DNA of 52,925 nucleotides from Candidatus Eisenbergiella pullistercoris. GTDB lineage: Bacteria > Bacillota > Clostridia > Lachnospirales > Lachnospiraceae. The position numbers and the translations under genes were made by a program. The stretch lies in assembly GCA_019115665.1 (NCBI GenBank), contig DXDD01000072.1:1-52925 (forward strand), read 5' to 3'. Every line of letters starts with the position of its first letter. The stretch's first letter is position 1. Shown in pieces: positions 1,373-30,420 of this stretch. The notes beneath the pieces are model-generated. The model did not search any database. It was not told where the DNA came from and saw nothing but the letters and a program-made list of their open reading frames with translations.

Positions 1373-2710
1373 CTATTCTTCCTGAAAGCTCCGGTTGCTT
1401 TCGATCTTCACCTGTATCCCGTCCTCCACGAGCTTTCGGAAAAACAGGCGTTCCACATCCGCTTCAACGATGCAGCTGGCAAAATTGACGGTAAGGGTAT
1501 CCTCAAAGCTTACGATGGCGCAGTTGGTGCGTGAGGAAAAGGGCTGGCCCATGTAGATGTCGAAGCGTTCGATATGGGGCTTCATGTCCTCCGGAACCTT
1601 CAGCGCGCCCATGTTGGTCAGCCCTGCGGAGGAATTTTTATCCTGAACACGGCGGTAGAAGGTGCGTACCACGATATCCTTGAGAAACAGAGGGACCACG
1701 CGGATGAAGGGATTGCGCCTGGTGGCCGCGTTGGTGGTAATATCGCCGCGCAGGAATTTTTCATTGATATAATAGCGCATAAAATTGCGCACCTGCGCAA
1801 CGATCTCTTCAAAGGTATAGTCCCCCAGCCTGGGATCGATGGACGGATAGACCATGGTGATAAAGTTGCGCAGCGTCCGCGAAGGGAAAAAACGTCTCAG
1901 GTTCACGGGCAGGGCGATCCGCACCGGGTACAGGCGAAGGTGGTGCTCCTGAAGCTGTCTGGCAAGAAGCGCGTACAGCAGGACGGAATTGAGATATTCC
2001 GTGATGGTCGCCCCGTACTTTTTGGCGGCGGCGTTCACCTGGGAAACGGACAGGATGCCGTCGATGATGTTGAGGGTATGAAAGGGCTCCGGCGTGCCGC
2101 GCACCCGATAGGTTTTTTCCGCCGGCCTGGGAGGGCACACCCGGGCGTTGGCATAACGCATGTAGGCGTCCTCCAGTTCCTCCGGATCCGGCTTCTCATT
2201 CACGTCCAGAACAAAATACCCGTTCGAGATCTGATTGCCGAGCAGCCGCAGATAGACCGCGGTGATGGTCTGAAGCACGCACATGCCGCCGGTTCCGTCC
2301 CCCAGACAGTGGTGACATTCCAGCGAGATCCTGCGGTCATAATAGTAGACGCGCAGCAGATAGCGGTTTCCGGCCTTAAAATACATGGGCATGCAGGGGT
2401 TGGCGATATCCGGCTCCACAAAAGGGCCGGGGCGGCTGTTCGGCTCCAGATAGCGCCAGAAGAGCCCCTTATGGATCGCCACCCGGTAGGTGGGGAAACG
2501 CTTCAGCGCAATATCAACCGCCTTCTGCAGAACGTCCGGGCGTATGGGCTCCTTTAAAAGGACGGAAAGCCGGTAGACGGAGGAAAAATTCCTTCGCTGC
2601 AGGGTGGGGTAGACGGTGGCGGACAGATCCAGCAGGTACCAGTCCCTCTGCCCGCCCGGAGCCGCGCCGCCTTTTCCGCTTTTTTTATGAAAAATGGTCT
2701 GAAATGCCAT
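1373..2710 (-). CDS. condensation-fold acyltransferase (alcohol acetyltransferase-like)
   Basis: This 445-residue protein carries the acyltransferase/condensation motif HHxxxDGxG as HHCLGDGTGG near residues 133-142. It also has a C-terminal segment (SFEDTLTVNFASCI) like the second half of chloramphenicol-acetyltransferase-fold enzymes. Such enzymes (WES/AATase, PapA5, free-standing C domains) move acyl groups from a thioester to an alcohol or amine. No signal peptide is seen, so it is probably cytosolic. AAAGGAAG lies four bases upstream of the ATG. It is the first gene of a two-gene operon with the DUF6320 membrane protein and lies divergently from an HSL-family esterase, which gives a possible acylation and deacylation pair. 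Substrate unknown. Confidence 0.75.
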   Translation of the reverse strand: MAFQTIFHKKSGKGGAAPGGQRDWYLLDLSATVYPTLQRRNFSSVYRLSVLLKEPIRPDVLQKAVDIALKRFPTYRVAIHKGLFWRYLEPNSRPGPFVEPDIANPCMPMYFKAGNRYLLRVYYYDRRISLECHHCLGDGTGGMCVLQTITAVYLRLLGNQISNGYFVLDVNEKPDPEELEDAYMRYANARVCPPRPAEKTYRVRGTPEPFHTLNIIDGILSVSQVNAAAKKYGATITEYLNSVLLYALLARQLQEHHLRLYPVRIALPVNLRRFFPSRTLRNFITMVYPSIDPRLGDYTFEEIVAQVRNFMRYYINEKFLRGDITTNAATRRNPFIRVVPLFLKDIVVRTFYRRVQDKNSSAGLTNMGALKVPEDMKPHIERFDIYMGQPFSSRTNCAIVSFEDTLTVNFASCIVEADVERLFFRKLVEDGIQVKIESNRSFQEE

Positions 2711-28225: not shown

Positions 28226-28732
28226 ATTAGCGAGTTATTTATCAACGAACAGATCAGAGACAGGGAAGTGCGTTTGATCGGAGCGGACGGCGCTCAGATG
28301 GGGATCATGTCCGCAAGGGACGCCCTGAAGATCGCGGAGGAGGCCGGACTGGATCTGGTGAAGATCGCTCCTACGGCAAAGCCTCCGGTCTGTAAGATCG
28401 TGGACTACGGCAAGTACCGGTATGAGCTTTCCCGCAAGGAGAAGGAAGCGAAGAAGAAACAGCGCACCATCGAGATCAAGGAGATCCGCATGTCTCCCAA
28501 CATCGATACCAACGACCTGAACACGAAGGTCAGCGCGGCGAGAAAGTTCCTGACGAAGGGAAATAAGGTGAAGGTGACCCTGCGCTTCCGCGGCCGCGAG
28601 ATGGCGCATATGCAGACCACCAAACATATTCTGGACGATTTTGCCAAAATGCTTTCCGATATCGCGGTGGTTGAGAAGGCCCCCAAGGTGGAAGGCCGCA
28701 CCATGACCATGTTTTTAACTGAAAAACGTTAA
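28226..28732 (+). CDS. infC: translation initiation factor IF-3, AUU start
   Basis: IF-3 binds the 30S subunit and enforces correct start-codon choice. The 168-residue product begins at ATT 28226 with GGAGGG seven bases upstream; no ATG, GTG or TTG is available there, and the codons after it (ISELFINEQIRDREV) are the conserved IF-3 N-terminus. A GTG at 28268 would truncate that domain and lacks a ribosome site. The linker and C-domain follow (RYELSRKEKEAKKKQ, KEIRMSPNIDTNDLNTK, KVTLRFRGREMAH). The AUU start is the classical device by which IF-3 represses its own translation. First gene of the IF3-L35-L20 operon. Confidence 0.97.
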   Translation: MSELFINEQIRDREVRLIGADGAQMGIMSARDALKIAEEAGLDLVKIAPTAKPPVCKIVDYGKYRYELSRKEKEAKKKQRTIEIKEIRMSPNIDTNDLNTKVSAARKFLTKGNKVKVTLRFRGREMAHMQTTKHILDDFAKMLSDIAVVEKAPKVEGRTMTMFLTEKR

Positions 28733-29002: not shown

Positions 29003-29359
29003 ATGGCAAGAATCAAAGGCGGCATGAATGCCAGAAGAAAACATAATAAAGTATTAAAGCTTGCGAAGGGCTACAGAGGAGCGAGATCCAAGCAGTACAG
29101 GATTGCGAAGCAGTCTGTGATGAGAGCGCTTGCTTCTTCCTATGCGGGACGCAAGGAGAAGAAGCGTCAGTTCAGACAGCTCTGGATCGCCCGTATCAAT
29201 GCTGCGGCCAGACTGAACGGCCTGTCCTACAGCAGGTTCATGCACGGACTGAAGCTGGCTGAGGTGGACATCAACAGAAAGATGCTGGCTGAGATGGCAG
29301 TGAACGACGCGGAAGGTTTTGCAGCGCTGGCCGAGATCGCGAAGTCCAAAATCGCATAA
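29003..29359 (+). CDS. rplT: 50S ribosomal protein L20
   Basis: A 118-residue basic protein beginning [20 protein letters not shown], with [21 protein letters not shown] and [18 protein letters not shown]. It is needed for early 50S assembly and is the expected repressor acting on the L20 leader. GGAGGAG upstream of the ATG. The operon ends in a terminator 15 bases later. Confidence 0.98.
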
Positions 29360-29374
29360 GAGACCAGAAAAATC

Positions 29375-29405
29375 AGGGGTTCCGGAAACGGAACTCCTTT
29401 TTTGT
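29375..29405 (+). terminator. terminator of the infC operon
   Basis: AGGGGTTCCG-GAAA-CGGAACTCC followed by TTTTTT (29398-29403). On the minus strand the same stem is followed by TGATTTTT, so it may stop transcription both ways. Confidence 0.93.
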
Positions 29406-29568
29406 GAAAGCCCTGGACGGCGTCGATACAGACAGGCATGCAGGCATGCCCGTCTGTATCGACATCGGCCAGGCAAGGGGACGTGAGCAGGAAGGGCGAC
29501 AGCCCGGATTGCGAATGCCTCCGGCGATTGCGGAACGACGAAGGCGTGGACCAATCGGCTTTCACAGT
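29404..29568 (+). ncRNA. highly structured RNA candidate (raiA-motif-like?)
   Basis: The outer ends TGTGAAAGCC (29404-29413) and GGCTTTCACA (29559-29568) are perfect 10-bp complements. Inside, CCTGG/CCAGG (29412-29416 with 29469-29473) leads to a 12-bp perfect stem (29422-29433 with 29452-29463) extended by GGCATG/CATGCC. Then comes GGGC-GACA-GCCC (29494-29505) and a 3' half with conserved-looking GATTGCGAA and CGATTGCGGAAC. No reading frame here has a ribosome site. A frequent Clostridia RNA of this size and complexity is the raiA motif; that identity is from memory and uncertain. Strand chosen by similarity to the remembered motif. No clear promoter is seen. Confidence 0.6.
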
Positions 29569-29631
29569 CACAAGATTGTATAAAAGGGACGGATATCGGC
29601 GAGGTATCCGGCAGCGGGAAAGGAGTTTGAC

Positions 29632-30420
29632 ATGAATCAGAAAAAATCGGGCAATGAGGGAAAGAAACCGCTCCGCTGGTGTGCGATCGGAGATTCCTTC
29701 ACCTATCTGAACGATCATCCGGAGGAGACCGGGTATCGTGTGACGGAAGGGTATATCAGCAGAACCCGCAGAAAGACGGGAGCTTTTTCCGTGATCAATC
29801 TGGGAAAAAACGGGTCCGCAACACCGGACTGGCTGGAGGAGAAATTCCCCGAGGCGGAGCTGTATACAGTCCTGCTGGGAACGAACGACTGGCACAGAGG
29901 CGTTCCGCTGGGAACGCAGGAGGATTTTGAGGCGAAGAAAGAAGGCTCCATTCTGGGGAATCTTTCCGTTATTCTGGAGCATATCAGGCAGGCCGGTCCG
30001 GAAGGGAAGATCATTGTAATGAATCCGGTGGAAAGAGGAGATTTCGTATATATCCTGGATCCGCTGAACCATGCGCACGGAAGCTATGCGCCGGATCAGG
30101 GGCAGATGCTGTGCGACATAGCGGAAGGGATCCGGAATGCCTGTGAGAGCGCGGGGATCCCCTTCCTAGATCTGCACGGCCTTTCCGGCTTTGCGCCGGA
30201 AACGGCAGTGCGCTTTAAACGGGTAAAAACGGCGGAGGGCTACCGAGAGCTACCCTGGCCCGCCTATATTGACGTGCCGGTCGATTATGAAAACGATGAT
30301 TATCCTTATCCGCCGGAGGCCGCCGACTACACCTACGACGGTCTTCACCCTTCAGATAAGGGAAACGAGGCCATCGCCTGCCTGCTGGCGGAAAAGATCA
30401 GAGAGGTTCTGCAGCTGTAA
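29632..30420 (+). CDS. SGNH/GDSL-family hydrolase
   Basis: This 262-residue protein has the SGNH blocks: IGDSFTYL with catalytic Ser near residue 20, Gly in NLGKNGSAT, Asn in LLGTNDWHRG near residue 85, and Asp-x-x-His in YDGLHPSDKGNEAIA near residue 245. Family members are esterases or acetylhydrolases with varied substrates, often on carbohydrates or lipids. No signal peptide. AAAGGAG lies six bases upstream of the ATG. It sits downstream of the structured RNA with about 60 bases between; whether that RNA controls it is open. Confidence 0.88.
   Translation: MNQKKSGNEGKKPLRWCAIGDSFTYLNDHPEETGYRVTEGYISRTRRKTGAFSVINLGKNGSATPDWLEEKFPEAELYTVLLGTNDWHRGVPLGTQEDFEAKKEGSILGNLSVILEHIRQAGPEGKIIVMNPVERGDFVYILDPLNHAHGSYAPDQGQMLCDIAEGIRNACESAGIPFLDLHGLSGFAPETAVRFKRVKTAEGYRELPWPAYIDVPVDYENDDYPYPPEAADYTYDGLHPSDKGNEAIACLLAEKIREVLQL

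Follow-up and report, generated by a model that had tools for sequence, protein, structure and literature searches.

What is the structured RNA that follows the rplT terminator of Candidatus Eisenbergiella pullistercoris, and how did it come to stand there? The window, by which we mean the whole stretch of DNA analysed, is an entire contig of 52.9 kb (52,925 nucleotides) from a genome of 3.29 Mb. The locus consists of the following parts.

29003–29359, + strand: rplT, for ribosomal protein L20, at the end of infC-rpmI-rplT (TIGR01032, E 6.9e-46).
29375–29403, + strand: intrinsic terminator of rplT, with its hairpin at 29375–29398 and a T run to 29403 (sequence, terminator scan).
29405–29564, + strand: Clostridiales-1 RNA element, RF01699, model positions 1–166 (94.3 bits, E 5.9e-20; z -7.45).
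29404–29412, + strand: 5' arm of the outer stem, 9 bp, equivalent to the left transposon tip of copies that have two ends (pairing, tip comparison).
29413–29472, + strand: hairpin 1, with a CTGG/CCAG base, a 12+6-bp stem and a CAGG loop (fold, sequence).
29476–29522, + strand: second stem-loop, with a GGGC-GACA-GCCC tip and the conserved internal loops GTGAGCA...GGATTGCGAATG (RF01699 match, fold, conservation).
29526–29556, + strand: third stem-loop, GATTGCG...CAATC (RF01699 match, fold, covariation).
29557–29565, + strand: 3' arm of the outer stem, 9 bp (pairing).
29632–30420, + strand: GDSL-like hydrolase gene, next sense gene after the element (PF13472, E 8.5e-19).

An earlier note on this DNA had placed a non-coding, structured RNA directly after the rplT terminator. 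This is where it lies: rplT ends at 29359, the T run of its terminator ends at 29403, and the element abuts that run with no gap. Upstream, Pfam models identify rpmI and infC. The apparent start of infC is an ATT codon at 28226, after AGGAGG, and the ORF tool starts the gene at GTG 28268; ATT is the usual start codon of infC. Between rplT and the element the promoter scan found no promoter-like site, so that synthesis by read-through, one of the two routes that had been proposed, is probable. The terminator scan found no + strand terminator-like site between the element and the GDSL hydrolase gene.

A scan of 4227 Rfam families identifies the RNA. RF01699 matches over the full model (1–166 of 166) with nearly twice its cut-off of 48 bits, the E value being calculated over the whole window, and is the sole above-cut-off match at the element site; the one further match of this kind in the window is a tRNA. 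The match agrees with the earlier description of a non-coding structured RNA on the + strand. At E up to 1, the stretch 29200–29800 yields besides RF01699 just three weak microRNA models on the opposite strand. The earlier note had suspected a raiA-motif RNA, a reading for which size and clostridial host are the only points in favour and which now has a negligible chance: raiA went unmatched at E up to 1 in the full Rfam scan, which rules this identity out, and RF01699 occupies its place with 94.3 bits.

The structure itself is well borne out. The minimum free energy is -89.8 compared with a shuffle mean of -57.4, and none of 200 shuffles was equally stable; the reverse strand is also much stabler than its shuffles (z -6.84). 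The outer stem, formed by 29404–29412 with 29557–29565, is perfectly paired as had been stated, with a length of 9 bp and not 10. The 12+6-bp hairpin (arms GTCGATACAGAC/GTCTGTATCGAC and GGCATG/CATGCC), the GGGC-GACA-GCCC hairpin and the two GATTGCG boxes, at 29507 and 29526, appear in sequence and fold as they had been described. Covariation, which had been proposed as a check, is found as well: among 45 aligned copies, 20 of the 23 predicted pairs show a compensating double change in at least one sequence, and in the two 3' stem-loops some stretches of the loops hardly vary. Since in 83 of 92 family copies the fold of the sense strand is better than that of the antisense, by a mean of 8.3 kcal/mol, the + strand is likely the RNA strand in the window. 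Counts of G-U versus A-C say little, at 13:10 for the outer stem and 25:14 over the 23 pairs, and the strand assignment is thus carried by the folding energies.

The RNA is patchily spread and often multiplied. The genome of the window holds four RF01699 copies. Together with 60 relatives this makes 61 genomes, of which 28 give matches at E up to 0.001 and 19 give matches over the cut-off; the highest count for a single genome is 35, and 14 control genomes gave no RF01699 match. When 398 genomes were drawn evenly from the phylum, four were positive, all belonging to the window's own family, of which five members had been drawn. A pattern scan of named genomes returned at least 120 stretches; 60 of these were scanned with Rfam, and 48 scored over the cut-off for RF01699. 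The named carriers include Candidatus Blautia faecipullorum and Muricomes intestini as well as MAGs of Roseburia, Agathobacter, Butyrivibrio, Hungatella and Fusicatenibacter, names that point to Lachnospiraceae as the window's family. Tandem copies were seen at L185 (G074:C8), L059 (G015:C26) and L081 (G057:C1, about 1032 kb); at L185, two 185-bp copies lie 5 bp apart, the size of one duplication. A divergent sub-family in G006 (L192, L193, L194, L204) has TTCACTCGTCCGCC or CACAGCC ends, extra repeats in its 3' part and weak RF01699 scores.

What had been missed is that the element has kin that move and that occur in many copies. Read together with their flanks, two-ended copies form a unit with TGATACCAGGGTCAAAAG at its start and the inverse of TGATGTTGGGGTCAAAAG at its end, giving inverted repeats of the form TGAT...GGGTCAAAAG. 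This inverted-repeat pattern occurs in 42 of 150 genomes of the family, and none of them contains the pattern when it is reversed as a control. Of 43 two-ended copies, 30 lie between exact direct duplications of 5–6 bp (2000 shuffled pairings: mean 2.6, maximum 9); so do, in a set that shares some copies with the former, 42 of the 49 copies in G074 whose right end was found by script, compared with 2.5 in shuffles. G074 carries 111 matches, and three congeners carry 2, 11 and 2. Exactly 185 bp long are 42 of the G074 copies, with a mean identity of 95.7%; the 185-bp units that were checked match RF01699 with 122.6–137.3 bits, and the first position of the model falls on the tip of the transposon.

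For one G074 insertion the congener G582 provides a clean empty site, in which the flanks are joined minus one TTATA and align over 600 of 600 nucleotides without a gap at 92% identity. In the other two congeners the flanks of this site align on one side only, and a second G074 flank found no match in any of the three. An independent presence/absence difference between G582 and G074 is seen at L327 (about 1660–1700, reverse strand), where a 38-bp hairpin form lies between genes in G582 and is absent in G074. Short forms of 37–72 bp keep the ends and have lost the RNA body; at least two of them (38 and 71 bp) have exact duplications, and two more do when read by eye, so that movement does not require the RNA body in cis. 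Hairpin-only derivatives with little beyond the two inverted repeats occur at L127 and L153 (37–38 bp), others of about 71 bp at L132, L167 and L107, and several derivatives have target duplications. Sequence comparison thus strongly supports the view that RF01699 makes up the body of a MITE-like transposable element that is non-autonomous.

The insertion targets have a character of their own. Target duplications are 5–6 bp long, A/T-rich and of the form T...A, and in G074 the preferred target reads A-T-A-A-T-A just 5' of the element, its two best-conserved positions being T in 84% and A in 90%. In this genome 36 of 68 left flanks contain a -10-like hexamer, which is also found in 16 of 49 right flanks and at 49 of 540 control positions. 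With a combined -35/-10 total of at least 9, 14 of the 68 left flanks qualify, compared with 8.8 in shuffles (reached by 33 of 1000 shuffles), and with a total of at least 10, seven compared with 1.7 (1 of 1000); the right ends give five and one of 67 at these two thresholds. Promoters at the G074 left flanks are real but a minority. In this genome 43 of 66 downstream genes are in sense and 41 of 61 upstream genes in antisense, as expected from positions in promoter regions.

Orientation separates the classes of copies, with the caveat that all counts derive from crude reading-frame calls in which orthologues were kept. Copies without the right repeat are biased towards sense (44:17 for the upstream gene, 48:16 for the downstream gene), and the two-ended copies of the mixed set have no clear orientation (24:17 upstream, 26:16 downstream). 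In the named set the sense bias is 29:11 upstream (p 0.006) and 24:14 downstream, the latter not significant (p 0.14). In 23 of 92 copies no more than 3 nt separate the start of the element from the end of a sense gene, and one copy occupies the mirror position in antisense. The upstream gene often takes its stop codon from the element's own TGA, as polC does. There, the tip TGA serves as the stop codon in G000, and the same flank occurs in four relatives, the five loci being L076, L186, L190, L200 and L202; the identity of polC was checked in G000 only. A replication-locked orientation was also considered and rejected, because among the matches listed for G057 six of nine loci run with replication and three against it (dnaA at 1.06 Mb, terminus taken as opposite).

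No transposase with matching ends was found in the stretches examined, and one may lie elsewhere. Candidate autonomous partners, pairs of matching ends 1.2–5.4 kb apart, turned out to be separate copies around ordinary genes. The IS21 model gave matches in four of seven genomes, none over the cut-off, and none at all in G014, G020 and G078. The IS21 hit in G074 was rejected as a partner; it belongs to a unit of a DUF6431 protein, an IS481-like transposase and an AAA ATPase, whose contig ends lack the element's repeats. This unit lies on the 3.4-kb contig L332 (G074:C56), as would a repeated transposon. The exact pattern of the 3' hairpin was absent from the viral contigs, and the G014 element had no plasmid match. 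It does match ten unannotated gut phage records, namely MT835871.1 and nine other gut 'Bacteriophage sp.' entries, which may be misfiled fragments of bacterial chromosomes.

The window copy belongs to a class that is devoid of the right repeat, biased towards sense and placed after stop codons or terminators. It has neither the right inverted repeat nor a target duplication, the flanks being TTTTG versus CAGTC; because no duplication exists there, its own mobility rests on kinship and on its absence in relatives. Across the class, just 2 of 69 copies without the right repeat have exact duplications; G008:C60, a copy with TGAAAGCC-type ends, has TTTGTA on both sides. Of the copies with TGAAAGCC-type ends, 12 of 22 have a terminator on the 5' side and none of 22 on the 3' side according to the scan, and the corresponding numbers for the other copies are 7 and 9 of 70. 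By eye, the 5' terminators of TGAAAGCC-type copies represent about ten distinct loci in the genus.

T-box leaders often precede such copies. In nine of 12 chosen terminator-type loci of the genus a T-box leader ends 22–39 nt upstream of the element, with matches at E 3.8e-8 or better that all lie under the Rfam cut-off of 93 bits. The nine loci correspond to five distinct operons, several of them found in two or three species. T-boxes above the cut-off stand at the same place in an Agathobacter MAG and in G057, a member of another family of the order. The genes after T-box-associated elements are ileS, valS, trpE and thrS, seen as fragments that score below full-length cut-offs; the ileS fragment has its top score to the MupA model, far under the cut-off of that model. 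For the gene 3' of the element at G000:C116 the search gave no identity.

The rplT site was compared by eye at 12 loci of the genus, one of 13 genomes being unmatched. The window is the one locus among them to have the element in full. G009 (L105) keeps the outer stem and hairpin 1 and lacks the remainder, and G006 has a hairpin-1-like remnant. In G004, G008 and G010 the terminator is followed by the same hydrolase gene and the element is absent; G005 has unrelated or decayed sequence, and five further loci have other downstream sequence. Divergence of the flanks over the 12 loci is too great for an empty site to be read cleanly.

Sites at which a copy is shared between species give a measure of how well it is kept. 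Between distant pairs, the identity of the element exceeds that of the following spacer at polC (0.82–0.84 vs 0.65–0.67) and at the trpE T-box (0.84–0.86 vs 0.53–0.57), whereas at ileS (0.91 vs 0.88) and valS (0.83 vs 0.85) it is no better kept than its flanks. Double changes occur in 4/56, 5/62, 1/55 and 1/40 pairs at polC, trpE, ileS and valS, and broken cells in 3, 11, 3 and 0 pairs in the same order, the polC figures coming from an alignment in which hairpin 1 seems misaligned. The picture is mixed and argues weakly for selection on the shared copies.

We consider it probable that the RNA is a transposon-derived structured RNA carried in host transcripts, and that the window holds a resident Clostridiales-1 copy of a MITE-like family. 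Active members have the inverted repeats TGATACCAGGGTCAAAAG on the left and TGATGTTGGGGTCAAAAG read inwards from the right, and their 5–6 bp target duplications are presumably made by a transposase acting in trans. Resident copies, which often lie between a T-box terminator and its gene, could be transcribed whenever RNA polymerase reads through; in the window, polymerase coming from infC-rpmI-rplT would run past the rplT terminator and on towards the GDSL hydrolase gene. Because the transposon tip is also the start of RF01699, the element cannot accommodate an upstream promoter of its own, and the RNA is for that reason most simply made from host transcripts. Comparison between genomes demonstrates, at the level of sequence, the family membership, the RNA fold, the mobility of the two-ended class and the sense bias of the other class. 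The window copy would have arrived by the same route as the mobile copies and is presumably transcribed, and retained copies may act in cis, as a leader or intercistronic element for mRNA processing, stability, spacing or expression of the next gene. A more ambitious version, which we offer tentatively and regard as possible at best, has the transposon delivering a conserved, structured RNA module into host transcripts, an element that prefers TATAAT-like sites and points just after terminators, T-box leaders and stop codons and that is kept in sense as a cis leader or intercistronic part, in effect a portable UTR part across Lachnospiraceae.

The main rival is selfishness with tolerated positions, to which we give a serious chance that still falls short of even. 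A purely selfish element would bring no benefit to the host: sense bias and positions would reflect least harm, and the fold would serve the element, either in its own transposition or by sparing host transcripts. The burst of near-identical copies in G074 is what such an element would produce, its A/T-rich target preference has an obvious example in the T runs of terminators in a G+C-rich genome, and the element is missing from the rplT site in several relatives. However, the 37–72 bp forms with duplications and no body show that movement does not need the RNA in cis, and the copies at polC and trpE, unlike those at ileS and valS, are better kept than the spacer behind them. A free-standing gene for a trans-acting small RNA, its repeats being merely gene duplicates, is unlikely. 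The Rfam label 'Gene; sRNA' implies trans action, structural conservation is strong, and a table in the discovery paper, Weinberg et al. 2010, scores Clostridiales-1 as a probable RNA and not as cis-regulatory (PMC2864571); yet RF01699 begins at a transposon tip, the window copy has no promoter-like site before it, and positions of copies differ between congeners, with target duplications. Still less probable, to a degree that we would hardly entertain it, is an RNA that, by self-cleavage or processing, frees invaded transcripts of itself: a multi-branch fold with nearly invariant internal loops and the sense placement inside transcripts would suit it, but no Rfam ribozyme family matches at the element site.

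A resident, transposon-derived RNA would give meaning to a class that has been an orphan of gut bacteria since 2010, since mobility provides an origin and a testable role. If RF01699 is a transposon body, its patchy multi-copy distribution, the tandem copies and the absence of any constant neighbouring gene have an explanation, and isolates that differ in having or lacking a copy at a given site could be compared to test its function. Mobile RNAs between T-box terminators and aminoacyl-tRNA synthetase genes would moreover constitute a natural experiment on leader structure in gut-bacterial operons. Literature searches on Clostridiales-1 and RF01699 returned, besides the discovery paper, nothing on its function; those on MITEs together with Lachnospiraceae, structured RNA and Rfam, or Firmicutes noncoding RNA returned nothing on Clostridiales-1. 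Prior notice of its mobility may exist in supplements and subscription papers.

With bacterial MITEs the family shares small size, lack of coding capacity, inverted repeats, target duplications, high copy number and deletion forms. It differs in that its body is a conserved structured RNA and not the remnant of a transposase gene, and in that the parent transposon was not found. Group IIC introns are likewise mobile structured RNAs that lie directly after intrinsic terminators in one orientation. However, no intron family in Rfam matches the window element, and its target duplications and inverted repeats are rather the marks of a DNA transposon. The raiA-motif RNA, or ModT, resembles it as a structured clostridial non-coding RNA (PMC11706538), but represents another Rfam family without a match at the window element. 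Clostridiales-1 as presented in its discovery paper agrees in full-length match, fold, and Clostridiales and gut hosts (PMC2864571), and whereas Rfam treats it as an sRNA gene, the family is here shown to cover, starting at its 5' end, the same ground as a transposable element. The nearest parallel in behaviour are bcr1–bcr3 of the Bacillus cereus group, interspersed MITE-like repeats in UTRs and between operon genes (PMC3446304, PMC6542083); of the wider set bcr1–bcr18, about half of the copies in one strain are transcribed within mRNA (PMC3446304, PMC6542083). The B. cereus group and TTTAT motifs are what these accounts link the bcr repeats to, whereas the RF01699 family carries a curated fold through many genera.
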